From contig JAETTP010000017.1 of NCBI GenBank assembly GCA_021769035.1, positions 1 through 53,146 of the forward strand: a DNA stretch of 53,146 nt, given 5' to 3'. Source of the DNA: Bacillota bacterium (lineage in GTDB: Bacteria > Bacillota > Dehalobacteriia > UBA4068 > UBA4997). The translations under genes and the position numbers were made by a program. Shown piece by piece: positions 19,071 through 40,179 of this stretch (the first letter of the stretch is position 1; every line of letters starts with the position of its first letter). The notes beneath the pieces are model-generated. The model had not been told where the DNA came from, searched no databases, and was given only the letters and a program-made list of their open reading frames with translations.

Positions 19071-19099
19071 TTGACTTAACAGCTTGGCTATATTATTTA
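19071..19099 (+). promoter_or_regulatory. Promoter of the SLH-GH5 gene
   Basis: TTGACT (19071-19076), 17-nt spacer and TATTTA (19094-19099). The overlapping TATATT gives a shorter spacer and is less likely. AGGAGAGG at 19104-19111 is the ribosome site. Confidence 0.65.
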
Positions 19100-19122
19100 T
19101 AGTAGGAGAGGTGTATTTTATA

Positions 19123-20784
19123 ATGTTCAAACATTTTTTGCTGCTTTTGTCGCTACTGTTAGGCCTGCCGACCGCTCAGGCGGTGGCAGCGCCCGCGCCA
19201 ACCTTTTCCGACGTGCAGCCGGCCGGCTGGTACTATCAGGCCGTCACGGAGATGACCCAAGCTGGTTGGCTCACCGGCTATCCAGACGGCAGCTTTCGTC
19301 CAAACGCAGCCATAAGCGCGGCGGAATTTGTCAGCCTGACGGCCCGCCTCTCCCCTCTGCCCCAGCCCAAGGGCCCGGCGCAGAACAGGCATTGGGCCGA
19401 CAAGGTTATGCGCAGCGCCATGGAAGCCAACTGGTATGATTGGGACGAGCTGCCGCCCACAGCAGAGCTTTATGACCTGCCAATTTCCCGTCAGCTGGCC
19501 GTGAAAATTTTAATGCACGCCCTGCTGCCGCAGGCTAAAGGCGATTACAGCACGCAAAGCGCCAAAATAAGCGATTTTACCGCCCTGCCCGGCCGTTACT
19601 ACGAGCCGGTGCTGGCCGCCTACCAAACCGGCGTGCTCACCGGCGAGGCCGACGGCCGTTTCCGGCCGCAGAGCAGCCTGAGCAGGGCGGAGGCCTGCGC
19701 CATATTGCTGCGAGCGGTGCAAGCAAAGCAAGCGGAACAAGCCGGACAAATTGAGCAATCCGGGCCCTCTGCCCAAACTGGACAAGCCGGACAGACTGGA
19801 CAATCTGCCAAAACTGAGCCACCTAAACAAAGCCAGCCGCCGCAAACTACGTCAACAACGCCAACGGCCAACGCAACGCCCATCATTCGTCAGGGCGGGG
19901 TCAGCCAAAACGGTCGCCTGCAAGTGATTGGCGCCCAGCTTTGCAATGCGGACGGGCAGCCCGTGGTACTGCGCGGTATGAGCAGCCACGGCCTGCAATG
20001 GTATCCTCAGTTTGCTTCTGCGCAGGCAATGGCCAGCACCGCGGAATATGGCGCAAACGTTTTCCGGCTGGCTATGTACACCGCCGAGGGCGGTTATCTC
20101 AGCCAGCCCAGCCTGAAAGAAACCGTCAAAAACGGAGTGGCCGCAGCTGTGCAGAACGATATGTACGTTATCATTGATTGGCATATTCTTTCCGACGGCA
20201 ATCCGCTAAGCCACCTGGAGGAAGCCAAAGCTTTCTTCCAGGAAATGGCCAAACTATATAAAGATACGCCAAACGTGATTTATGAAATTTGCAACGAGCC
20301 AAACAACGTCAGCTGGGCCGGCGAGGTGCGGCCCTACGCCGAGGCCGTAATTGCCGCTATTCGGGCCGAGGACGAGCAAGCGATAATTTTAATCGGCAGC
20401 CCCACCTGGAGCCAAGACGTGCACCTGGCCGCCGCCAACCCATTGCCCGGCCAAAATCTGATGTATACCTGCCATTTTTACGCCGGCACCCACGGCGAAT
20501 GGCTGCGCCAGCGGGTTGACGAGGCCCTGCAAGCTGGCCTGCCTATCTTCGTTTCCGAATGGGGAGTCAGCCGGGCCGACGGCGGCGGCGGCGTTTATCT
20601 GGAGGAGGCCGAAAAATGGCTGCAATTTATGCAGCAGCGCGGTTTAAGCTGGTGCAGCTGGTCGCTCTGTGATAAAAACGAAAGCTCAGCCGCCCTCAAC
20701 CCCGGCGCGCCGCCAAACGGCCCCTGGAAGGAGCAGGAGCTTAGCCCGGCCGGCCGCTTCGTGTTCAGCCATTTTAGGGATTGA
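19123..20784 (+). CDS. S-layer-anchored GH5 endoglucanase
   Basis: About 553 residues. Signal peptide (about 1-26, cut near AQA-VAA), then SLH repeats: a clear first (FSDVQPAGWYYQAV with GYPDGSFRP), a divergent second and a clear third (GEADGRFRPQSSLSRAEA). A Gln/Gly/Ser-rich linker of repeated Q-A/T-G-Q units follows, then a GH5 catalytic domain (about 245-553) with acid/base Glu392 in the NEPN motif and nucleophile Glu479 in VSEWG. It resembles GH5 subfamily 2 cellulases acting on beta-1,4-glucans and would be held to the cell wall by its SLH part. ATG at 19123 is chosen for the ribosome site; an upstream frame to 19084 overlaps the promoter. Confidence 0.9.
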   Translation: MFKHFLLLLSLLLGLPTAQAVAAPAPTFSDVQPAGWYYQAVTEMTQAGWLTGYPDGSFRPNAAISAAEFVSLTARLSPLPQPKGPAQNRHWADKVMRSAMEANWYDWDELPPTAELYDLPISRQLAVKILMHALLPQAKGDYSTQSAKISDFTALPGRYYEPVLAAYQTGVLTGEADGRFRPQSSLSRAEACAILLRAVQAKQAEQAGQIEQSGPSAQTGQAGQTGQSAKTEPPKQSQPPQTTSTTPTANATPIIRQGGVSQNGRLQVIGAQLCNADGQPVVLRGMSSHGLQWYPQFASAQAMASTAEYGANVFRLAMYTAEGGYLSQPSLKETVKNGVAAAVQNDMYVIIDWHILSDGNPLSHLEEAKAFFQEMAKLYKDTPNVIYEICNEPNNVSWAGEVRPYAEAVIAAIRAEDEQAIILIGSPTWSQDVHLAAANPLPGQNLMYTCHFYAGTHGEWLRQRVDEALQAGLPIFVSEWGVSRADGGGGVYLEEAEKWLQFMQQRGLSWCSWSLCDKNESSAALNPGAPPNGPWKEQELSPAGRFVFSHFRD

Positions 20785-22434: not shown

Positions 22435-23535
22435 TTAATCGTCGCAACTCAGCTCCAGCCAACACTGGTCTGGCTGCACCTCTGCCACAAAAATGCGGCC
22501 CGCGTCGGCAGCAGATTTAGCCTGATTGTACTTAAACAACATTCGATTGTCCGGCAGCTTGCCCACAATCTCCACCTTGCCCCGTGGGGTGGACATACAA
22601 TAGCGCAGGCATTTGCCCACACCGTTCTGGCCGCCCTTAGCCAGCTCCACAATCTCCAGCCCTTTTGGCAGCGGCACCTGAAACTGCGCCTTAACGCCGC
22701 GCACCGGCCGGCACTGAAATATATAGTAAGGCGCCACGCCAACCGCGGTCAGCCCACGCAACAGCTGGCTAAGCACCTGAGGGTCGTCATTAACACCTCT
22801 CAGCAGCACCGTCTGATTGCGCAGCATTACGCCGGCTTGGATAAAGGTTTTGACAACCGCTTTGGCCTCCGTCGTCAGCTCGCGCGGGTGATTAAACTGG
22901 GTCACCAGATAAATCTGCTTATGTTGGGCATACTTGGCAAAAATAGCCTGCAACTCCTCGTCCTGCAAAACCCGCTCCGGATATACCACCGGCACCCGAG
23001 AGCCAAAACGGATAAAATCCAGCTGAGGCAAAGCCGTCAGCTCCCGCAGATACTTCTCCAAAGTGGCGTTGCTCAGCAGCAGGGAATCGCCGCCGGAAAC
23101 TAAAATGTTGGTAATTTCCGGGTGGGCTTTGATATAGGCCAGCATTGCGTCAAAATTATCGGCAATTTCCTCCTCGTTGGAGCCAACCAAACGCTTGCGG
23201 AAACAATGCCGGCAGTACATCGCGCAACGATTGGTGGAAAGAATCAAAGCCGTTTGCTGATATTTGTGCTGCAAGCCGGTAACCACCGTGTTATCCGCCT
23301 CGCCGCTAGTATCAAAATCGCCGGAAATATCCGTTTCCGTCAATGAGGGAATACACATTCGACGTATCGGGTCGTCAGGGTCGTCCCAATCAATCAAGGA
23401 TAAATAATACTGCGGAATTGCCATCGGGAAAACGTCCAAAATGCTTTGCAGACTGGCCTCTTCAGCAGCGGAAAGCCCCATCAGACCGCTGATTTCAGCC
23501 GCCTGGGTGTAAATCTTACTTCTCTGTACGGTCAT
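22435..23535 (-). CDS. KamA-family radical SAM aminomutase
   Basis: 366 residues. The radical SAM cluster motif is C104-x3-C108-x2-C111 (CAMYCRHC), followed by FRKRLVG, the SGGDSLLL block and IRFGSRVPVVYP typical of lysine 2,3-aminomutases. The PLP lysine is probably the Lys of the STPRGKVEIVG segment. Classical lysine 2,3-aminomutases are about 400-470 residues and carry a longer C-terminal part; this shorter form could act on free lysine, on EF-P lysine or on another amino acid. No EF-P lysyltransferase-like neighbour is seen. ATG follows AAGGAGG. It is a single gene. Confidence 0.85.
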   Translation of the reverse strand: MTVQRSKIYTQAAEISGLMGLSAAEEASLQSILDVFPMAIPQYYLSLIDWDDPDDPIRRMCIPSLTETDISGDFDTSGEADNTVVTGLQHKYQQTALILSTNRCAMYCRHCFRKRLVGSNEEEIADNFDAMLAYIKAHPEITNILVSGGDSLLLSNATLEKYLRELTALPQLDFIRFGSRVPVVYPERVLQDEELQAIFAKYAQHKQIYLVTQFNHPRELTTEAKAVVKTFIQAGVMLRNQTVLLRGVNDDPQVLSQLLRGLTAVGVAPYYIFQCRPVRGVKAQFQVPLPKGLEIVELAKGGQNGVGKCLRYCMSTPRGKVEIVGKLPDNRMLFKYNQAKSAADAGRIFVAEVQPDQCWLELSCDD

Positions 23536-23648: not shown

Positions 23649-25523
23649 TTAAGCAAACTGCCAACGCTTTAATATCCGCTGCCCCAGCTTCTCCGGCGTT
23701 AAGCCGTAGCGGGCAAACAGCTGCTCCGGCTTGCCGTGCGGCACAAATTCCTCCGGGAAAGCCGCCAGCTCCACCTCGGCCGCCACCCCTGCCGCTTGCA
23801 GCAGGGCCAAAATATTTTCTCCCACGCCGCCGCTGCGGATACCGTTCTCCCAAACCAGCAAACGGCCGCAGCTTTTGGCTAAATCGCAAATCAGCTCCGC
23901 GTCCAATGGTTTGGCAAAGCGCAAATCAGCCACCGCTGCCGCCACGCCACGTTCCGCCAGCCAATCCGCCAGACGCAAAGCCCGCTCCACCATATCGCCC
24001 AAGGCCAAAATGCCCAGCTGAGCCTTGGCCGGGTGCAGCAGCAGCTCGCCCTTGCCGTAAACCAACGGCTGCGGCGGATACTGCGGCAGCTCCAGCACCG
24101 CACCCCGCGGATAGCGCAGGGCCACCGGCTGCTTCAACTGCAAAGCATAGGCCAGCATTTGACGCAGGGCCTCGGCGTCCCGCGGCGCCAGCACCGTCAT
24201 ATTCGGCATTGCGCAGAGCATTGAAAGGTCAAAAAGGCCCTGGTGAGTTTCCCCGTCCTCGCCGACAATTCCGGCCCGGTCAATCGCCAGCACCACCGGC
24301 GCGCCGGCCAAGCAAATATCCTGAAACAGCTGGTCGTAAGCCCGCTGTAAAAAGGTGGAGTAAACCGCCACCACCGGACTGAGGCCGCGCAGGGCCATAG
24401 CCCCGGCAAAGGTAAGCATGTGTTGCTCCGCAATGCCCACATCGTAAAAACGATCTGGATAAAGCTGCTGAAAGGGAGCCAAGCCGGTGCCGTCCGGCAT
24501 AGCCGCCGTCACCGCCACCAGCTGCGGCTGCTCCGCCGCCAGCTTCAGCAGCTGCTGCGAGAAGCAATCCGTCCAGCTGGGGGCCTTGGCTGGGGCCTGG
24601 CCGGTCTGCAAATCAAAGCTGCCAATGCCGTGAAAAGCCGTCGGGTTGGCCTCGGCCGGCGCATAGCCGCGCCCCTTTTGGGTGATTACGTGGATAAGCA
24701 CCGGCTTTTCAATCTGGCCGGCCAGGCGCAGAGTTTCCAACAGATCGGCAATATTATGGCCGTCCACCGGGCCCAGATAGACAAAACCCATCTCCTCAAA
24801 CAGCACGCCCCGCACCAGGAAATATTTCACTGCGTCCCGCAAACGCTCCAAACCATTAAAGAAAGACTTGCCAATCTTTTTGCGCTTCAACAAAAATTTG
24901 GTTAACCGGTCTTTCAAATGCCGATAACGCTTGTTGGAGCGCAAGCGCGTCAGATAGCGGCTCATCGCGCCAACATTTTCCGCGATTGACATCTCATTGT
25001 CGTTTAGGATAACCGTGAAAGGAACCTTCAAATCGCCGCCGTGGTTCAGGGCCTCGTAGACCATGCCGCCGCTCATCGCGCCGTCGCCAATCACCGCAAA
25101 AACCTTTTTCTGCTGGCCCAGCTGGCGCGCCGCCTGGCTGATACCCACCGCCACGGAAATGGAAGTGCTGCTGTGGCCGGCCACATAAGCGTCCGTGGGG
25201 CTTTCATAGGGCTTAGGGAAGCCGCTGAGCCCGTCCAGCTGGCGCAAGGTGGCAAACTGCTCCCGCCGGCCGGACAAAAGTTTGTGGGCGTAGCACTGGT
25301 GGCCTACATCCCAAACGATTTCGTCGTTGCCGGAATCTAAATCCAAATAGTAATGCAGGGCGATTGTCAGCTCCACAATCCCCAGGTTGGAGGCCAAATG
25401 GCCCCCGTTTTGGCTGACCGTATGCAGAATTTCCTGCCGCAGCTCAGCGGCCAGCACCTCCAGCTGGCTTTTATTCAATTTTTTTAGATCAGCCGAACAG
25501 CTGATTTCTTCTAAAACCACCAT
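23649..25523 (-). CDS. dxs: 1-deoxy-D-xylulose-5-phosphate synthase
   Basis: 624 residues; condenses pyruvate and glyceraldehyde 3-phosphate in the first step of the MEP isoprenoid pathway, using thiamine diphosphate. The ThDP motif starts at GDGAMSGG (146-153) and ends with LNDNEMSI; the pyrimidine-domain glutamate sits in VGIAEQH, and DRAGIVGEDGETHQG is the family's activation-loop block. Full length and all key residues are present. It lies 55 nt downstream of the OapA-like gene and the OLE RNA in the same direction, the context in which OLE RNAs are known. Confidence 0.97.
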   Translation of the reverse strand: MVVLEEISCSADLKKLNKSQLEVLAAELRQEILHTVSQNGGHLASNLGIVELTIALHYYLDLDSGNDEIVWDVGHQCYAHKLLSGRREQFATLRQLDGLSGFPKPYESPTDAYVAGHSSTSISVAVGISQAARQLGQQKKVFAVIGDGAMSGGMVYEALNHGGDLKVPFTVILNDNEMSIAENVGAMSRYLTRLRSNKRYRHLKDRLTKFLLKRKKIGKSFFNGLERLRDAVKYFLVRGVLFEEMGFVYLGPVDGHNIADLLETLRLAGQIEKPVLIHVITQKGRGYAPAEANPTAFHGIGSFDLQTGQAPAKAPSWTDCFSQQLLKLAAEQPQLVAVTAAMPDGTGLAPFQQLYPDRFYDVGIAEQHMLTFAGAMALRGLSPVVAVYSTFLQRAYDQLFQDICLAGAPVVLAIDRAGIVGEDGETHQGLFDLSMLCAMPNMTVLAPRDAEALRQMLAYALQLKQPVALRYPRGAVLELPQYPPQPLVYGKGELLLHPAKAQLGILALGDMVERALRLADWLAERGVAAAVADLRFAKPLDAELICDLAKSCGRLLVWENGIRSGGVGENILALLQAAGVAAEVELAAFPEEFVPHGKPEQLFARYGLTPEKLGQRILKRWQFA

Positions 25524-25578: not shown

Positions 25579-26193
25579 TTATTCCTTGGGCGTTTTTGGG
25601 CGGTGCCGCAGATAAGCGCGCACCACCTCCGGCCAATCCAGCAGGCGGCCCACGTTAAAGATAATATCGTCCGCCTTATTGATAGCAAAGCTTTTGCCCA
25701 AGGCCTTGCCGGCCACCGTCACCGCGGCAATGCAGCCGGTTATCCCCACGCTGATTAACAGGCCAACCAGACCGCCGGAGGTTGTCAGCACCGCGGCCAG
25801 GGCCGTGCCAATGCCGCCGGAAACCGTGCCGCAAACATCGCCAATCACATCATTGCAGATGTTGGCTACCCGGCTGGCGTTTCTGGTTAGGCTCAACGCT
25901 TTTTTGGCGCCCGGAATCCGTTTGGAGGCCTTGGCGTTTAGATGCGTCTGCCCACAAACGGAAACCGCCGTGCCGATAATATCAAAAAACACACCCACCA
26001 ACACCACAAAAACCAGCACAGAAAAGCCCAGCCAAAAGCTGTTCATATTCTTCAACACCAGCTCCGAAACCAGGGCAATCAAGCAGGCGCAAAAAAAAGT
26101 GCCGACGAAAACAACCAATGTGTAAACGGCCGCACTGTTCTGCTTGTTATTCACTTTACCGCCGTTTTTGGCAGCGGATTTTTTTTGGTTCAA
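25579..26193 (-). CDS. oapA: OLE-associated membrane protein (OapA-like)
   Basis: 204 residues with a basic, lysine/asparagine-rich start, helices at about 22-45 and 53-75, and a long glycine-rich hydrophobic region at about 125-163. Conserved-looking polar elements sit inside or beside the helices: FFDIIGTAVS (about 69-78), LTRNASRVANICNDVIGD (about 102-119) and the C-terminal NKADDIIFNVGRLLDWPEVVRAYL. This set matches my memory of OapA, the integral membrane protein that binds OLE RNA in Bacillus halodurans. Translation begins at a TTG 9 nt after GGAG. Its position between the large RNA and dxs supports the call. Confidence 0.8.
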   Translation of the reverse strand: MNQKKSAAKNGGKVNNKQNSAAVYTLVVFVGTFFCACLIALVSELVLKNMNSFWLGFSVLVFVVLVGVFFDIIGTAVSVCGQTHLNAKASKRIPGAKKALSLTRNASRVANICNDVIGDVCGTVSGGIGTALAAVLTTSGGLVGLLISVGITGCIAAVTVAGKALGKSFAINKADDIIFNVGRLLDWPEVVRAYLRHRPKTPKE

Positions 26194-26234
26194 ACTTTTT
26201 CACTCCATAATTTTCTATTTTTACTTAAAAAATT

Positions 26235-26838
26235 AATATGTGACCGTTATCAGGTAAACTTTATGGCTTAGGTCTGGCAAGTTTTCCTAATGGCCGCACC
26301 ACTGCGTCGCCGCGGTGGCGGTTCCCACTTACGGGCCAATCTGGGGCGTTGCCGCACCCAGCGCCAAATCACCACTTAGACCATACTATAATCCCTGCTA
26401 ACATCAGTCTAGGAGCTTTCCTCAACGCCACCACCACATTTTTAGCCTCTTTTGCATCAGTGGTTTCATCAGGGGGTGCTGTGGTCTGGTCAAACCGAAC
26501 AGACCCTGTTTTGTCAAGCCCGCTTGCCAGCAGGCAATCCACCACTCACACTCAAGGCAGGCTACGCTGCACCCAGCATTTAACCGAATGCAGGTTTAAT
26601 CCCAAGCCATAGTTATCATGCCTGACCAAAGACATCTCCCCACGCACTTGGGTCTCCACGGAAATTGGGTCGGCTTCCACATGCCGTTGCGGAGCGCCCA
26701 AAAACCTTAACTCCCACTACCAGCCCCCGACTGGGCGTCAGAAGCCAGCAGCAGAAACTTCATCGATGTGCCCTTAACGGATTTTTAGCCCCGTCTTCAA
26801 AATGCAGCGTGACGACTAGAATACTGCGTCACATATTA
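26235..26838 (-). ncRNA. ole: OLE RNA (ornate, large, extremophilic)
   Basis: About 600 nt without a credible gene, rich in local inverted repeats, lying between a strong promoter and an OapA-like gene. Examples: TTTAACC (26579-26585) with GGTTTAA (26593-26599), and GGTCTG (26483-26488) with CAGACC (26500-26505); a GC-rich hairpin area lies at about 26295-26365. OLE RNAs are about 600 nt, are usually next to oapA and often near dxs and other isoprenoid or DNA-repair genes, and bind OapA at the membrane; loss in Bacillus halodurans sensitises cells to ethanol, cold and magnesium stress. Ends are estimates: 5' from the promoter, 3' just before the oapA ribosome site. The call rests on size, structure and context, not on an alignment. 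Confidence 0.82.
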
Positions 26839-26844
26839 CTGTTT

Positions 26845-26873
26845 AGTATAGCATAAACCCGCCCAAAAATCAA
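26845..26873 (-). promoter_or_regulatory. Promoter of the OLE-oapA-dxs unit
   Basis: Leftward TTGATT (26868-26873), exactly 17 nt, then TATACT (26845-26850). It lies 31 nt beyond the yraN stop codon and 7 nt before the inferred RNA 5' end, so the RNA has its own start although it follows the rbgA-rnhB-yraN operon closely. Confidence 0.8.
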
Positions 26874-26903: not shown

Positions 26904-27257
26904 TCACCAGCGCAGATAATCCTCAATCAGCTCAATCCGCCCGTCCGCGTTAATCGCCAGCAGCAAAAAGCTGCACGCCGCCTCCCGGCCCAGCTTTTGA
27001 TAAAGCCAAGCCTGCGCCGCCAGATACAACCGCCGCCGCTTAGCCGCCGTCACCGCTTCGGTCGGGCCAAACCAAGCGCCCTCGCCGCGATATTTCACCT
27101 CCACAAAGTAAATAACTCCGTCCTTGCGGCAGACAATATCCAGCTCACCGCCGCCACCCCGGAAATTGCGCTGCAAAATCTCATATCCCAGCCCCTGCAA
27201 GTAGCGCACCGCCCGCTCCTCGCCCTGCTGACCCAGCCTAGCGCTTAGTTTGCCCAT
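26904..27257 (-). CDS. yraN: YraN-family (UPF0102) nuclease-like protein
   Basis: 117 residues, full length. The family motif E-A-fold-GGELDIV (Glu38, Asp40) and FVEVKYR (Glu53, Lys55) forms the restriction-endonuclease-like D-ExK site; an early Glu14 in the first helix is also conserved. It probably acts on branched or recombination DNA, but the role is not proven. It lies 9 nt after rnhB, the usual partner. Confidence 0.93.
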   Translation of the reverse strand: MGKLSARLGQQGEERAVRYLQGLGYEILQRNFRGGGGELDIVCRKDGVIYFVEVKYRGEGAWFGPTEAVTAAKRRRLYLAAQAWLYQKLGREAACSFLLLAINADGRIELIEDYLRW

Positions 27258-27266
27258 AATGACACC

Positions 27267-28001
27267 TCACACTTTCTTAATCGGCTTCAACACAAAGCTG
27301 CGCCGGTGGATTGGCGAGGGCCCCAAATCAAAAACCGCCTGCTTGTGTTCCCGCGTGGGATAGCCGGCGTGCTGGGCCAAATTGTAGCCGGGATACATTT
27401 CGTCGTAAAACTGCATCAGCCGGTCGCGATAGCATTTGGCCAAAATGCTGGCTGCGGCAATGCTCAGGCTTTTAGCGTCGCCCTTAATCAGCGCGGTTTG
27501 CGGCAGCGCGCAATAGGCCCGCAGTTCCTCCCGCAGCGGACAGGCCGGCAGCTTGTCCTCCAGGCTCAGCGCATCCAGCAGCAAATGCTGCGGCCGCAGA
27601 GGCAAATTACGCAAAGCACGCAGCATAGCCACCTTAGTGGCCTGCAAAATATTCCAGCGGTCAATATCTCGCACGCCAACCACACCAATCGCCCAGGCCA
27701 GCGCGGCCTGCTTAATCAGCGGCTCCAATGCGTAACGCTTTTTGGCGGAAAGTTTTTTGGAATCATTCACGCCAGCCAACAGCAAGCCAGGCCGCCAAAT
27801 AACCGCCGCCGTCACCACCGGCCCGGCAATCGGGCCGCGGCCAACCTCGTCCAAGCCGGCCGCCAGCTCCACGCCACCCTGCCAAAGCTGTCGTTCATAT
27901 TCCAGCATACCGGCCAGCCTCTCCGCCTCTGCCGTGCCCGCAGCCGCCAATGCCTTTTCCGTAACCTGGCCGTTTCCCAGGCCAAACATCTCAAATTCCA
28001 T
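27267..28001 (-). CDS. rnhB: Ribonuclease HII
   Basis: 244 residues; cuts RNA in RNA-DNA hybrids and at single ribonucleotides. Active-site acids: Asp51-Glu52 in GLDEVGRGP, Asp143 in LLLDAL and Asp175 in IKGDAKSLSIAAASILAK. The tail has YPTREHKQAV and the basic HRRSF element. The N-terminal 45 residues are longer than in the shortest members but common in Bacillota. A second ATG lies four codons in. It sits between rbgA and yraN. Confidence 0.95.
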   Translation of the reverse strand: MEFEMFGLGNGQVTEKALAAAGTAEAERLAGMLEYERQLWQGGVELAAGLDEVGRGPIAGPVVTAAVIWRPGLLLAGVNDSKKLSAKKRYALEPLIKQAALAWAIGVVGVRDIDRWNILQATKVAMLRALRNLPLRPQHLLLDALSLEDKLPACPLREELRAYCALPQTALIKGDAKSLSIAAASILAKCYRDRLMQFYDEMYPGYNLAQHAGYPTREHKQAVFDLGPSPIHRRSFVLKPIKKV

Positions 28002-28031: not shown

Positions 28032-28892
28032 TTATATTTCGTCCATAGTGAAGCGGCCAATTTTGCCATTGCGGAATTCCGCCAGCAGCAAGCGGGCCGC
28101 CTCCTCCAAACGCACCACGCCGCCGCCTGCCAACAACCCCCTGGCCCGGCCAATATCCTCCAGCACCTGCTCCGGCAAACGGCCGGCTAACGCCTCCGGC
28201 TGCAATTTATAGCGTTCCGCCAAGGCCGCCTGGCCGTGGGCCAGCAGCCAATCCAAAAGCTGCAAGGAAACCTGATATTGGTCGTAGACCGTTTCGCTGA
28301 TAGCTCCCGTCACCGCCAAGCGCAAGGCCACCTCCGGCTGCTCAAATTTGGGCCAGAGCACGCCGGGCGTATCCAACAGCTCAATCTGCTCGCCAAAGCG
28401 CACCCACTGCTTGCCACGCGTCACGCCCGGTTTGTTGCCGGTTTTGCTGGCCGCTTTGGGCAGCAGAGCGTTAATCAAAGTGCTTTTGCCGGTGTTGGGG
28501 GAACCCACCACCATCGCGCGCACCGGCCGGCGGCGGCGGCCTTTGGCCGCCAGCTCCGCAAACAGGGGCTGGGCGGCCTGCATAATTTGACGTTCCAGCT
28601 CCTTAACGCCCTGGGTTTGCTGGGCGTTGATAGCTACGGCACCAGCGCAATCCGGGCGGCCGGCCAAAGCCGCCAGCCAGCGTTTGGTGGCGGCAGCGTC
28701 GGCCAAATCCCGCTTGTTTAGCACCATCAGCATCGGTTTTTGGTGCAAAATTTTATCAAAATCCGGATTGTAGCTGGAGCGCGGAATCCGCGCGTCCAAC
28801 ACCACCAGCGACATATCCACAATCCGAATATCCTCCTGCATCAACCGCTTAGCTTTGGCCATATGACCGGGATACCACTGAATTACTGTCAT
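28032..28892 (-). CDS. rbgA: Ribosome biogenesis GTPase RbgA (YlqF)
   Basis: 286 residues of a circularly permuted GTPase: G4 NKRD (59-62) comes before the P-loop GSPNTGKST (130-138) and G3 DTPG (174-177). The N-terminus MTVIQWYPGHMAKA is diagnostic, and the C-terminal domain (about 210-286) is the rRNA-binding ANTAR-like part. RbgA helps late 50S subunit assembly. ATG follows CAGGAG. Its first seven codons and leader are the source of the tandem array just upstream. Confidence 0.96.
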   Translation of the reverse strand: MTVIQWYPGHMAKAKRLMQEDIRIVDMSLVVLDARIPRSSYNPDFDKILHQKPMLMVLNKRDLADAAATKRWLAALAGRPDCAGAVAINAQQTQGVKELERQIMQAAQPLFAELAAKGRRRRPVRAMVVGSPNTGKSTLINALLPKAASKTGNKPGVTRGKQWVRFGEQIELLDTPGVLWPKFEQPEVALRLAVTGAISETVYDQYQVSLQLLDWLLAHGQAALAERYKLQPEALAGRLPEQVLEDIGRARGLLAGGGVVRLEEAARLLLAEFRNGKIGRFTMDEI

Positions 28893-29586
28893 AAGATTAC
28901 TCCTGTTTAACTAAAAAATTTAAGAAAAAAATCTGAAAGATTTTTTTATACCACTGAATTACTGCCATAAACAACTTCTACTTCACTAAAAAATTTAGAA
29001 AGAAAAATCTAAAAGATTTTTTTATACCACTGAATTACTGCCATAAACAACTTCTACTTCACTAAAAAATTTAAGAAAAAAATCTGAAAGATTTTTTTAT
29101 ACCACTGAATTACTACCATAAACAACTTCTACTTCACTAAAAAATTTAGAAAGAAAAATCTAAAAGATTTTTTTATACCACTGAATTACTACCATAAACA
29201 ACTTCTACTTCACTAAAAAATTTAGAAAGAAAACTCTAAAAGATTTTTTTATACCACTGGATTACTACCATAAACAACTTCTACTTCACTAAAAAATTTA
29301 GAAAGAAAATCAGAAAGATTTTTTTATACCACTGAATTACTACCATAAACAACTTCTACTTCACTAAAAAATTTAGAAAGAAAAATCTAAAAGATTTTTT
29401 TATACCACTGAATTACTGCCATAAACAACTTCTACTTCACTAAAAATTTAGAAAGAAAAATCTAAAAGATTTTTTATACCACTGAATTACTGCCATAAAC
29501 AACTTCTACTTCACTAAAAAATTTAGAAAGAAAAATCTAAAAGATTCTTTTCACCATTGAATAACTGTCATAAACAACTTCTATTC
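28872..29586 (-). repeat. Tandem array of about nine 74-76 bp units copying the rbgA start
   Basis: Units begin at 28872, 28948, 29024, 29099, 29175, 29251, 29326, 29402 and 29476, with a degenerate last one from about 29551 to the stop codon of the next gene. The first unit contains the true rbgA start. Read leftward, every unit has an ATG followed by codons for [A/V/T]-V-I-Q-W and, except in the last, Y, then an AT-only palindrome built on AAATCT-ttt-AGATTT (perfect in most units). Most copies encode M-[A/V]-V-I-Q-W-Y-K-K-I-F and stop; some run to about 21-23 codons. The rbgA ribosome site CAGGAG has become GTAGAAG in the copies. There are no unique spacers, so this is not CRISPR. Confidence 0.95.
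28897..28968 (-). CDS. Possible leader mini-ORF directly before rbgA
   Basis: The array unit next to rbgA encodes 23 residues, starting M-A-V-I-Q-W-Y-K-K-I-F and ending V-K-Q-E. Its TAA lies inside the rbgA ribosome site region, 4 nt before the rbgA ATG. If translated it could couple to rbgA, but its own ribosome site is poor, so it may be a silent by-product of duplication. Confidence 0.2.
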   Translation of the reverse strand: MAVIQWYKKIFQIFFLNFLVKQE

Positions 29587-30912
29587 CCATTTTGTAATAT
29601 GCCACTGCTCATCATCATAGTTAAAATATACGAAATGGTGACGTAAAACGTAAAAATCACCGCAACGGCCCTCGGAAAGCTGTTTCCAATTTTTGGAGGC
29701 CAAATCCACATAGAACAAAGGCCCGCTCAAGCTATCGCTCCGTCCATTAACATTCACATTAGTATGCGTGCTGTAAAAAACCTTGCTGCCAATCGCCTTT
29801 ACCTGCTGAATAGTGTAACCGTCCTGCAATGTCAGCAAAAGCTGCTTGCCGGAGCCGTCCTCCCGGCAGCGGTAAAGCGAGGTTTTATCATCATCGGTAA
29901 AATATGCCCAGCCGTTATCATAGGCAGAAACCGGCTGCGCCAATTTCACCGCGTTTTGTCCGTCCAAATCGGCGCAAAATGTTTTTACATCATAATAATG
30001 ATTGTAATATAACTTGTCCCCGGCAAACCAGTAAAGAGGCATTGGGCCGCTTGCCACCTGCTGGGCCTCCCCACCGGCCAGCGGCCGACGCTGCAAAACC
30101 AACTCGCCGCCGTATCTATCCGCGGAGTTACACCAGTACAGCCAACCGTCATATACGCTGAAACGCCAAACCCTGTCCTGCACCTGCTCGCAGGCCTTGC
30201 TCTGCAAATCAAAGCGCATTAGCTTGCCGTTATCGCTAAAGTACAGGCCACCGCCCCAAACCTGCAAACCGTCGCAGTATTTGGTTTCCTGCAAAACCGT
30301 TTCCGCCAGCGTTTCCTTGGCAAAGGCCTTAATCCGATAAAGTTGCGCCTGCTTATCGAAAACCGCCAGGTAAATATTGTCCGCGTCCTCCGCGCAGTTG
30401 GCCTCCGGGCCGTTGGGCAGGCCGCCAGCCCAAACCGGCAGTTCGGCGTCCGCCGCCGGCTCAATATCAATAATATGGTCGGCATAGCTAACTTTAGCCC
30501 CCAGCTGCTCGCCAATGAAACGCAGCGGCACAAAAACCGCGCCGCCCCGCAGTTGCGGGCTTTGCGGCAGCTGCACTGCCTGCCCGTTCACCTGCGCCTG
30601 CGCGCTGCCCGGCCGCAAAAGCAGCGTTTTTTCATCTAAAGTGATTTCCACCTGCCCGTTTTGCCACTGCACCTGCGCTCCTAAGGCCATGCTAACCGCC
30701 CGCAGCGGCACCAAAACACTGCCGCCGCTTTCATAGGGCGACACATTCAGCGGCAGATACTGACCGTTGACGTAAATCGCCTTGTCGTCCAACAAAATTT
30801 CCTCATCATCGCCGGGTAGCACTTGAACCGTTGCCGCCAGGGCCACAGAAGAGCACACAAGCAGTAAAACACACGCCAATAAAGCGCAAGCAACACTATT
30901 TTTCCACTTCAT
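29581..30912 (-). CDS. Secreted protein with copper-amine-oxidase-type stalk domain and a repeat C-terminus
   Basis: 443 residues with a signal peptide (about 1-26, cut after ALA). Residues about 45-150 form two stalk-type modules: VLVPLRAVSMALGAQVQW and FVPLRFIGEQLGAKVSY are the classic repeats of this domain. From about 165 on, recurring segments such as NIYLAVFDKQAQLYRI, GGLYFSDNGKLMRF and DGWLYWCNSADRYG suggest a DUF5050-like beta-propeller. It probably works at the cell surface; no enzyme site is visible. GGGAG precedes the ATG. The tandem array begins right after its stop codon. Confidence 0.85.
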   Translation of the reverse strand: MKWKNSVACALLACVLLLVCSSVALAATVQVLPGDDEEILLDDKAIYVNGQYLPLNVSPYESGGSVLVPLRAVSMALGAQVQWQNGQVEITLDEKTLLLRPGSAQAQVNGQAVQLPQSPQLRGGAVFVPLRFIGEQLGAKVSYADHIIDIEPAADAELPVWAGGLPNGPEANCAEDADNIYLAVFDKQAQLYRIKAFAKETLAETVLQETKYCDGLQVWGGGLYFSDNGKLMRFDLQSKACEQVQDRVWRFSVYDGWLYWCNSADRYGGELVLQRRPLAGGEAQQVASGPMPLYWFAGDKLYYNHYYDVKTFCADLDGQNAVKLAQPVSAYDNGWAYFTDDDKTSLYRCREDGSGKQLLLTLQDGYTIQQVKAIGSKVFYSTHTNVNVNGRSDSLSGPLFYVDLASKNWKQLSEGRCGDFYVLRHHFVYFNYDDEQWHITKWE

Positions 30913-38505: not shown

Positions 38506-40179
38506 TCAGGCTTTGGCGCTGGTTATCGTCACGGTTTTGCTGGCGTTGTCCCACTGCACCTGGCATTGCAGAGCTTCCGCCACTGCACGCAACGGCAGCA
38601 TGGTGCGCCCACCGACGGAAACCGCCGGCACGTCTAGCTGCTTGGTGACGTTGCCCACCTGCATTTCCTTGGAATCCAAAGCCAGCCGGATAGTTATCTC
38701 ACCGCGGCGGGCCTCAATTTGGCGGTCTTTGTAGTTCACCGCCGCGCCCAGCTCCTGGAAGATAAGCCGCATCGGCAGCATCACCCGGCCCTCTTCAATG
38801 TAAGGCTGCTGGTCAAAGGTCAGCTGCTTGCCGTCCACCAAAACCCGCACGCCGTCGCCTACCGTAGTCTGGTTTGGCAAAACCGTCACCGTTGGGGTAG
38901 TTGTGGCCTGATTTGCGCTCGTGCCTGTATTCAGATATGCCTGCCGAATAACCCGCTGCAAAGCCAGGCTGCTGTTAATGGAACCGTAGCGGAAGTGAAT
39001 AACCCCGGCCACCTGCGACTTGGCCGTGCAGGCCGCCATTTGCCGGGCAATCTCCGCCCCGTCAAACCACGGGCTGTCGGCAGCCTTGGCCTCCAAAGTT
39101 TTGTAATCCGCCAAGCCGATGTAAAGCTTCACACCGGTGCCGGTCACCTGCTCGCTCCACCAATTCAGCAATGCCGTAAAATCAGCGGTTTTGTGGCCGG
39201 CCTCCCAGTAAATCTGCGGGGCGATGTAATCCAGCCAACCGGATTTAACCCACAGCCGCGTGTCCGCATACATACTAAAATAAGAAGAATAAGTGCTGGT
39301 GGTGGCGCTGCCCTCCGGGTGCAGATTGCTGCTGGCCCAAATGCCCGCCGGGCTGATGCCAAACTGAATATCCGCCCGCGCCTGGTGCAAGGCCTGATCC
39401 AACCCCTGCACCAGCTGGTTCACATTATCGCGCCGCCAATCGCCAATATCGGAAAAGCCGCCGCCCAACGCAGCAAAGGAAGCCGCATCGTCAAAATCCG
39501 TGCCGGGATAAAAATAGTCGTCCATGTGCACGCCGTCAACGGCGTAGTTCTGCACCAATTCCACCGCGCCGTCAATCACCAACTGGCGCACCTCCGGCAG
39601 GGCCGGGTTGAAATAATAATTTTCCTTGTAAACGATCGTCCATTCCGGGTGCTGCTTGGCTGGGGAGCTGGCCGCCATTTTGTCCCACTCCGCCGCTGTT
39701 TTGGTAATCCGATAGGGGTTAATCCAGGCGTGCAGCTCCATACCGCGCCGGTGCGCGCCCTCCACCCAGTAAGCCAATGGGTCGAAGCCGGCGTTGGGGG
39801 CCACGCCCTGCTGGCCGGTTAAGTAAATACTCCAGGGGTAAATTTTGGAAGGATAAATCGCGTCCGCACAGGGGCGCACCTGCAAGAAAATGGCGTTGAA
39901 GCCGCAGGCCTGGGCGTTATCCAAAATTTTATCGGCCTGACTGCGCAGCTCGTCTGCGGAGGTGGTGGGCTGGCTGGGATAATCCAAATTAATCACGCTG
40001 GAAACCCAAAGACCGCGCATTTCCGTACTCGCGGCCACCTTGCTGTTGGCGTTGTCGGCCGCCGTGGCCGCCTCCGCCACCTGCTCCTCCGTCTGCAACG
40101 GAGGCAGCAGGGGCAGGGCCAAAACAAAAGCCAGGGCCACAAAAGCCGCCAACATCACTATTTTACTTAATGCTTTCAA
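38506..40179 (-). CDS. Secreted GHL10-type (DUF187) glycosidase with stalk domain
   Basis: 557 residues. Signal or anchor helix at about 8-28, then a TIM-barrel of the DUF187/glycosyl-hydrolase-like 10 family (about 50-410): MRGLWVSSV, FNAIFLQVRPCADAIYPS, GMELHAWINPYR, VDGVHMDDYFYPG with paired aspartates, and YIAPQIYWEAGHKTADF. Related DigH of E. coli cuts denuded peptidoglycan strands. The tail (about 435-557) holds stalk-type repeats MLPMRLIFQELGAAVNY and MLPLRAVAEALQCQVQW. TTG start after GAGGAGAG. It probably remodels the wall. Confidence 0.88.
   Translation of the reverse strand: MKALSKIVMLAAFVALAFVLALPLLPPLQTEEQVAEAATAADNANSKVAASTEMRGLWVSSVINLDYPSQPTTSADELRSQADKILDNAQACGFNAIFLQVRPCADAIYPSKIYPWSIYLTGQQGVAPNAGFDPLAYWVEGAHRRGMELHAWINPYRITKTAAEWDKMAASSPAKQHPEWTIVYKENYYFNPALPEVRQLVIDGAVELVQNYAVDGVHMDDYFYPGTDFDDAASFAALGGGFSDIGDWRRDNVNQLVQGLDQALHQARADIQFGISPAGIWASSNLHPEGSATTSTYSSYFSMYADTRLWVKSGWLDYIAPQIYWEAGHKTADFTALLNWWSEQVTGTGVKLYIGLADYKTLEAKAADSPWFDGAEIARQMAACTAKSQVAGVIHFRYGSINSSLALQRVIRQAYLNTGTSANQATTTPTVTVLPNQTTVGDGVRVLVDGKQLTFDQQPYIEEGRVMLPMRLIFQELGAAVNYKDRQIEARRGEITIRLALDSKEMQVGNVTKQLDVPAVSVGGRTMLPLRAVAEALQCQVQWDNASKTVTITSAKA

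Follow-up and report, generated by a model that had tools for sequence, protein, structure and literature searches.

A full-length OLE RNA and its OapA partner gene upstream of dxs in an uncultured lineage of the Bacillota

The 53,146-nt stretch of Bacillota DNA analyzed here (the window) contains about 600 nt of noncoding DNA followed by a gene for a small membrane protein and then by dxs, all on the minus strand. A preliminary description, made from the sequence without database searches, proposed that this is a complete OLE ribonucleoprotein (RNP) unit. Is it, and does its place in front of dxs have a functional meaning? OLE RNAs are about 600 nt long, have conserved loops and covarying helices, and accumulate as stable, abundant transcripts that localize to the membrane and form dimers; their partner, OapA, is the protein that takes the RNA to the membrane, binding it at a ratio of about 2:1. 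OLE RNAs are known from more than 2,800 Bacillota genomes (PMC11332333).

Our answer to the first question is that the locus is probably (about 0.87 for the explanation as a whole) a complete, conserved OLE RNP locus with the read-through and stress role proposed below. Sequence comparisons establish the identity of the RNA and the protein, a conserved promoter, the closing helix P1, the candidate partners, the neighboring genes, and the alternation with MpfA within the taxonomic order to which the window belongs. On the minus strand the genes are arranged as ylqF, rnhB, yraN, promoter, OLE RNA, oapA, dxs, and a kamA-like gene. The features are as follows.

28032..28892, minus strand: ylqF, ribosome biogenesis GTPase (TIGR03596, 310 bits)
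27267..28001, minus strand: rnhB, ribonuclease HII (profile search)
26904..27257, minus strand: yraN (UPF0102), just upstream of the promoter (profile search)
26845..26873, minus strand: predicted sigma-A type promoter, with -35 TTGATT at 26873-26868, extended TG, and -10 TATACT at 26850-26845 (sequence and position-matched conservation)
26224..26848, minus strand: OLE RNA (RF01071), full length, with the P1-bounded core at 26235-26837 (Rfam covariance model)
26828..26837, minus strand: 5' strand of the P1 helix, AATATGTGAC (pairing across 21 related RNAs)
26760..26766, minus strand: 5' strand of the OapC kink-turn: U, C, 3-nt bulge GAU, GA (alignment)
26705..26708, minus strand: 3' strand of the OapC kink-turn, AAGG (alignment)
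26667..26699, minus strand: P6 segment, GGG at 26699-26697 and CCC at 26669-26667 (invariant in 21 RNAs)
26235..26244, minus strand: 3' strand of the P1 helix, GTCACATATT (pairing across 21 related RNAs)
26203..26206, minus strand: ribosome-binding site GGAG for oapA (sequence)
25579..26193, minus strand: oapA, TTG start, 204 aa, CNNM-like membrane protein (CNNM profile, hydropathy, AlphaFold2 model, fold search)
25837..25851, minus strand: OapA-specific DxxxD motif, D115-VIG-D119 (homolog alignment)
23649..25523, minus strand: dxs (TIGR00204, 747.5 bits)
22435..23535, minus strand: KamA-family radical SAM protein, the same-strand gene after dxs (TIGR00238, 235 bits)

The Rfam OLE model matched 26224-26848 of the minus strand over model positions 1-616, which is the entire model, with a score of 433.5 bits (E = 4.7e-124; the gathering score of RF01071 is 50 bits). 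No family other than OLE reached the gathering threshold at this site, and the host genome (2.23 Mb, 98% complete) contains a single OLE copy. Thus, the structured noncoding DNA is OLE, as had been proposed, and with a full-length match at this E value the chance that the site is instead another class of structured RNA, or a chance fold, is negligible.

Helix P1 is formed by the 10 nt at either end of the core. Among 21 related RNAs 96% of the cells of this helix were paired, with two-sided changes in six of the 10 pairs; when the partner strand was slid by 1 to 3 columns, pairing was only 25 to 50%. The ends of the Rfam model carry no pairing, and P1 is already in the published OLE model, so its covariation here is a confirmation and not an extension. 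The core that P1 bounds is 603 nt long. Because the Rfam 5' boundary takes in part of the -10 box, the mature RNA would be about 603 nt rather than 625 nt.

The elements by which OLE RNA meets its partners are also recognizable. Both strands of the OapC kink-turn are kept, with a U-G wobble beside a C-G pair as in Halalkalibacterium halodurans (PMC9723947), and by our assignment the U and C at 26760..26766 appear to be the counterpart of U84/C85 of that RNA. The GGG/CCC of P6 is the apparent counterpart, again by our own assignment, of the bS21 site of H. halodurans (PMC12054373). The A-rich P4 loop is retained, as are the GCCCA loop of P5.1 and the GGC loop of P6.1, which are the published dimer contacts (PMC12265935). 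The kink-turn, P4, P5.1, and P6 motifs are conserved among the relatives' OLE RNAs as well. OLE variants 1 and 2 (TANB77 and RF39; PMC11332333) belong to the same RNA class, but the RNA described here retains P7, P8, a long P9, and P13, all at full size in the model and multi-sequence alignments (stem names were assigned from model order), and is therefore the full-length form and not one of these variants. In the OLE RNAs of three f7 genomes (loci L115-L117 of genomes G036, G038, and G042), the P13-equivalent hairpin is shortened or lost; a tie to loss of OapB was ruled out because OapB-like proteins are still encoded.

Could this OLE copy be decayed or inactive? Its score of 433 bits is below the more than 500 bits of several relatives, and it lacks, at 26396-26410 between CUAGACU and GGGAUUA, a short hairpin that the model has at about positions 423-435. 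But few RNAs of the order have this hairpin at full length, nearly all having a short one or none, and it is present in other families of the class; the remaining helices and conserved loops are all in place, P1 covaries, and OapA, OapB, and OapC are retained. Decay is thus very improbable.

The preliminary description also placed a promoter with 17-nt spacing on the 5' side of the RNA, TTGATT-17-TATACT. A simple promoter scan found five such sites versus 4.4 expected, so the scan by itself is no evidence for a promoter. Conservation of position is more informative. At all eight other same-genus loci examined, the identical place holds a match to 9 to 12 of the 12 promoter positions with a TG before the -10 box; the perfect sequence TTGACA-17-TATAAT (12 of 12 consensus) occurs at this position in two loci (L098 and L104), and most of the remaining loci have a TATAAT-like box there. 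From this position-matched conservation, the promoter is very probably real. A transcript start near 26837-26840, just before P1, is more likely than one at the Rfam 5' boundary.

The gene after the RNA begins 30 nt past the Rfam 3' boundary. Its 204-aa product is multi-helical by hydropathy and in the structure model. The Pfam match was to CNNM and was weak (29 bits); a weak CNNM match has been published for OapA too (PMC11332333). The DxxxD motif was present in every OapA homolog except one truncated open reading frame (ORF) call, and D115 and D119 were invariant among the 46 homologs that were aligned. With the AlphaFold2 model (pLDDT, 83.7) as query, places 1 to 6 of a fold search were all CNNM/CorB/CorC transmembrane structures with probabilities of 0.99 to 1.00; the E values were modest (0.007 to 0.34), and no other fold was convincing. 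There was no match to OapA in the PDB at the sequence level, and no NCBIfam model matched OapA or the OapB candidate described below. These results agree with the earlier reading of the TTG-started protein as OapA. OapA of the Peptococcaceae metagenome-assembled genome (MAG) ABMPRH_86_1 is 97% identical. OapA shares the CNNM membrane fold with the MpfA/CorC-family Mg2+ transporters but differs from them in having no CBS or CorC domain, in carrying DxxxD, and in working with RNA; this stripped-down CNNM membrane domain probably accounts for whatever the particle does in relation to Mg. In two other loci (L063:5248-6402 and L048:5656-6591), the oapA frame is open far upstream of the chosen start (385 and 312 codons from it, respectively), so that some OapA proteins may be much longer at the N terminus, unless the starts were miscalled.

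The host genome was searched family by family for the other particle components, of which the preliminary description had suggested looking for OapB and OapC. A candidate for OapC/YbxF (L071:4276-4578) is one of the small L7Ae proteins, retains the conserved glycine, and is encoded upstream of rpsL-rpsG; against 4lck/3v7e it gave an E value of 7e-12, and its IGVKQT aligns with IGTKQT. The OapB candidate, a KOW protein (L070:7993-8325), was recognized from its gene position, with map on one side and infA on the other, and has orthologs in eight of eight other same-genus genomes; its similarity to the PDB structure of OapB (7k9b; E = 1.4e-4 over 59 residues) is modest, and so it is a candidate only. 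The two proteins in the genome with Pfam KOW matches, one NusG-like and one L24-like, were rejected as OapB. Both bS21 and Spo0A are encoded. MpfA (architecture, CNNM-CBS-CorC) was not found in the host genome, where the OapA ORF was the only CNNM match. With strong identifications of the RNA and OapA, the OapB and OapC candidates, and bS21, the claim of a complete OLE RNP unit held up.

The OLE RNP of H. halodurans is similar in having a full-length RNA with oapA immediately downstream, the DxxxD motif and CNNM-like fold of OapA, OapB, OapC, and bS21 (candidates here), and no MpfA. It differs in that here the Rfam hairpin discussed above is missing, oapA starts with TTG, and the host is very likely an uncultured Peptococcaceae-type bacterium and not an alkaliphile. 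The host also has the surface proteins noticed earlier (SLH and stalk domains), namely a GH5 cellulase with an SLH domain and two proteins whose N-terminal domains are of the Cu-amine-oxidase type (19084-20784, 29581-30912, and 38506-40179). The ole-oapA-dxs loci of the Syntrophomonas and Desulfotomaculum types have the same order of oapA and dxs with short gaps. The upstream genes ylqF-rnhB-yraN were found only in the window's order, and not in those loci or in other members of the class, by tblastn with the window's proteins, which divergent copies could escape.

That dxs follows oapA, as first described, is clear from its profile match, and the adjacency of ole-oapA and dxs has been stated in the literature (PMC10898510). 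Between ole and dxs we found no strand-matched terminator-like site except a weak hairpin within the oapA coding region. From the spacing and the gaps free of such sites, we infer one transcript for ole, oapA, and dxs; transcription from ylqF-rnhB-yraN could enter ole as well. OLE was confirmed in 20 of 20 relatives' loci. In two genomes an unrelated short gene splits ole and oapA: a Cys-rich ORF (L107:4510-4990, minus strand; genome G010) and, in an Oscillibacter MAG, a probable acetyltransferase (L041:4717-5920). OLE-oapA-dxs also occurs in MAGs labeled Armatimonadetes and Deltaproteobacteria (L033 and L061); because the OapA proteins of these resemble Desulfotomaculum types, misbinning or transfer is likely.

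We searched 61 genomes for OLE and found it in 43; the window's order contributed 19 genomes with OLE and 16 without. In the 11 OLE-negative genomes of the order whose dxs contig shows the junction (L119, L121, L122, and L124-L131), yraN leads straight into dxs, and these closed slots held no OLE remnant at E < 0.1. Thus, ole and oapA are missing together from an otherwise unchanged arrangement, and ylqF-rnhB-yraN-[ole-oapA]-dxs alternates with ylqF-rnhB-yraN-dxs within one order. That other families of the class also have OLE points to loss and not to gain, but the deep branches of the tree are not resolved. Sporulation (Spo0A) did not separate genomes with and without OLE.

How, then, should the place before dxs be read? 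There is close to an even chance that the locus is an OLE RNP whose position is simply inherited gene order, with OLE, OapA, and Dxs functionally unlinked. In public genomes dxs directly followed oapA in 60 of 63 OapA loci, a sample gathered with OapA of the present locus and therefore biased toward its relatives (each of the 13 members scanned, the three without dxs among them, had a confirmed OLE), and descent alone could explain this common order. Where ole-oapA is gone, dxs stays beside yraN and so has no need of OLE, and the insertions between ole and oapA in two genomes point the same way. But the adjacency has lasted in many families of the Bacillota, whereas what lies upstream of ole varies beyond the present order. 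A metabolic coupling with dxs is conceivable.

A different emphasis makes OapA mainly a CNNM-type Mg2+ transporter, regulated or anchored by RNA, so that ole-oapA and mpfA would be alternatives for one need. This we regard as possible, at odds somewhat below even. The predicted CNNM fold of OapA is consistent with it. MpfA-type proteins (six with confirmed CNNM-CBS-CorC architecture) were encoded in 13 of the 16 OLE-negative genomes of the order versus one of the 19 OLE-positive genomes (P = 4.6e-6 by Fisher's test, which ignores descent), and an OLE-MpfA anticorrelation has been published (PMC11332333). But the state of OLE changed only about four times on the DXS tree, with two well-supported independent pairs, nearly always opposite as expected, and significance disappears once descent is corrected for. 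Furthermore, among OLE-positive genomes from outside the order about half also encode a strong CNNM protein, and three OLE-negative genomes, all from assemblies 61 to 89% complete, have neither OLE nor MpfA. With so few independent events, the pattern within the order refines the published anticorrelation but does not prove it. MpfA did not take over the vacated slot before dxs: the MpfA-type genes are on other contigs, and the slot is simply closed.

We return to the preferred reading, a complete and conserved OLE RNP locus; transcription through dxs, assembly of the particle, its membrane position, and its role in stress are inferred by extending it. The functions of the parts are taken from earlier studies (PMC11332333, PMC12265935, PMC9723947, PMC12054373, and PMC10898510). 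RNA polymerase would start about 7 nt past the -10 box and read ole, oapA, dxs, and the KamA gene in turn. The OLE RNA would fold, with help from OapB, OapC, and bS21, and dimerize, and OapA, made from the transcript that also contains the RNA, would keep it at the membrane. If its role is like that in H. halodurans, the particle may protect the cell under stress, above all from excess Mg2+, cold, short-chain alcohols, and growth on poor carbon sources. If expression is indeed shared with dxs, it most likely matches the supply of isoprenoids (for the envelope) to the same stress state and most likely does not reflect direct contact between RNA and enzyme.

The locus is an ordinary arrangement of a known system, with nothing new in kind, and one more well-supported OLE copy from an uncultured lineage adds little alone. 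The comparison with its relatives is more useful. We suggest, tentatively and at somewhat less than even odds, that ole-oapA is a two-gene cassette in a fixed ylqF-rnhB-yraN-dxs operon that is lost whole, with MpfA encoded elsewhere compensating. Closely related natural strains with and without ole-oapA at one fixed chromosomal site could test whether OLE-OapA and MpfA do the same work and, if the suggestion is true, the OLE RNP would be an exchangeable module of Mg2+ homeostasis.
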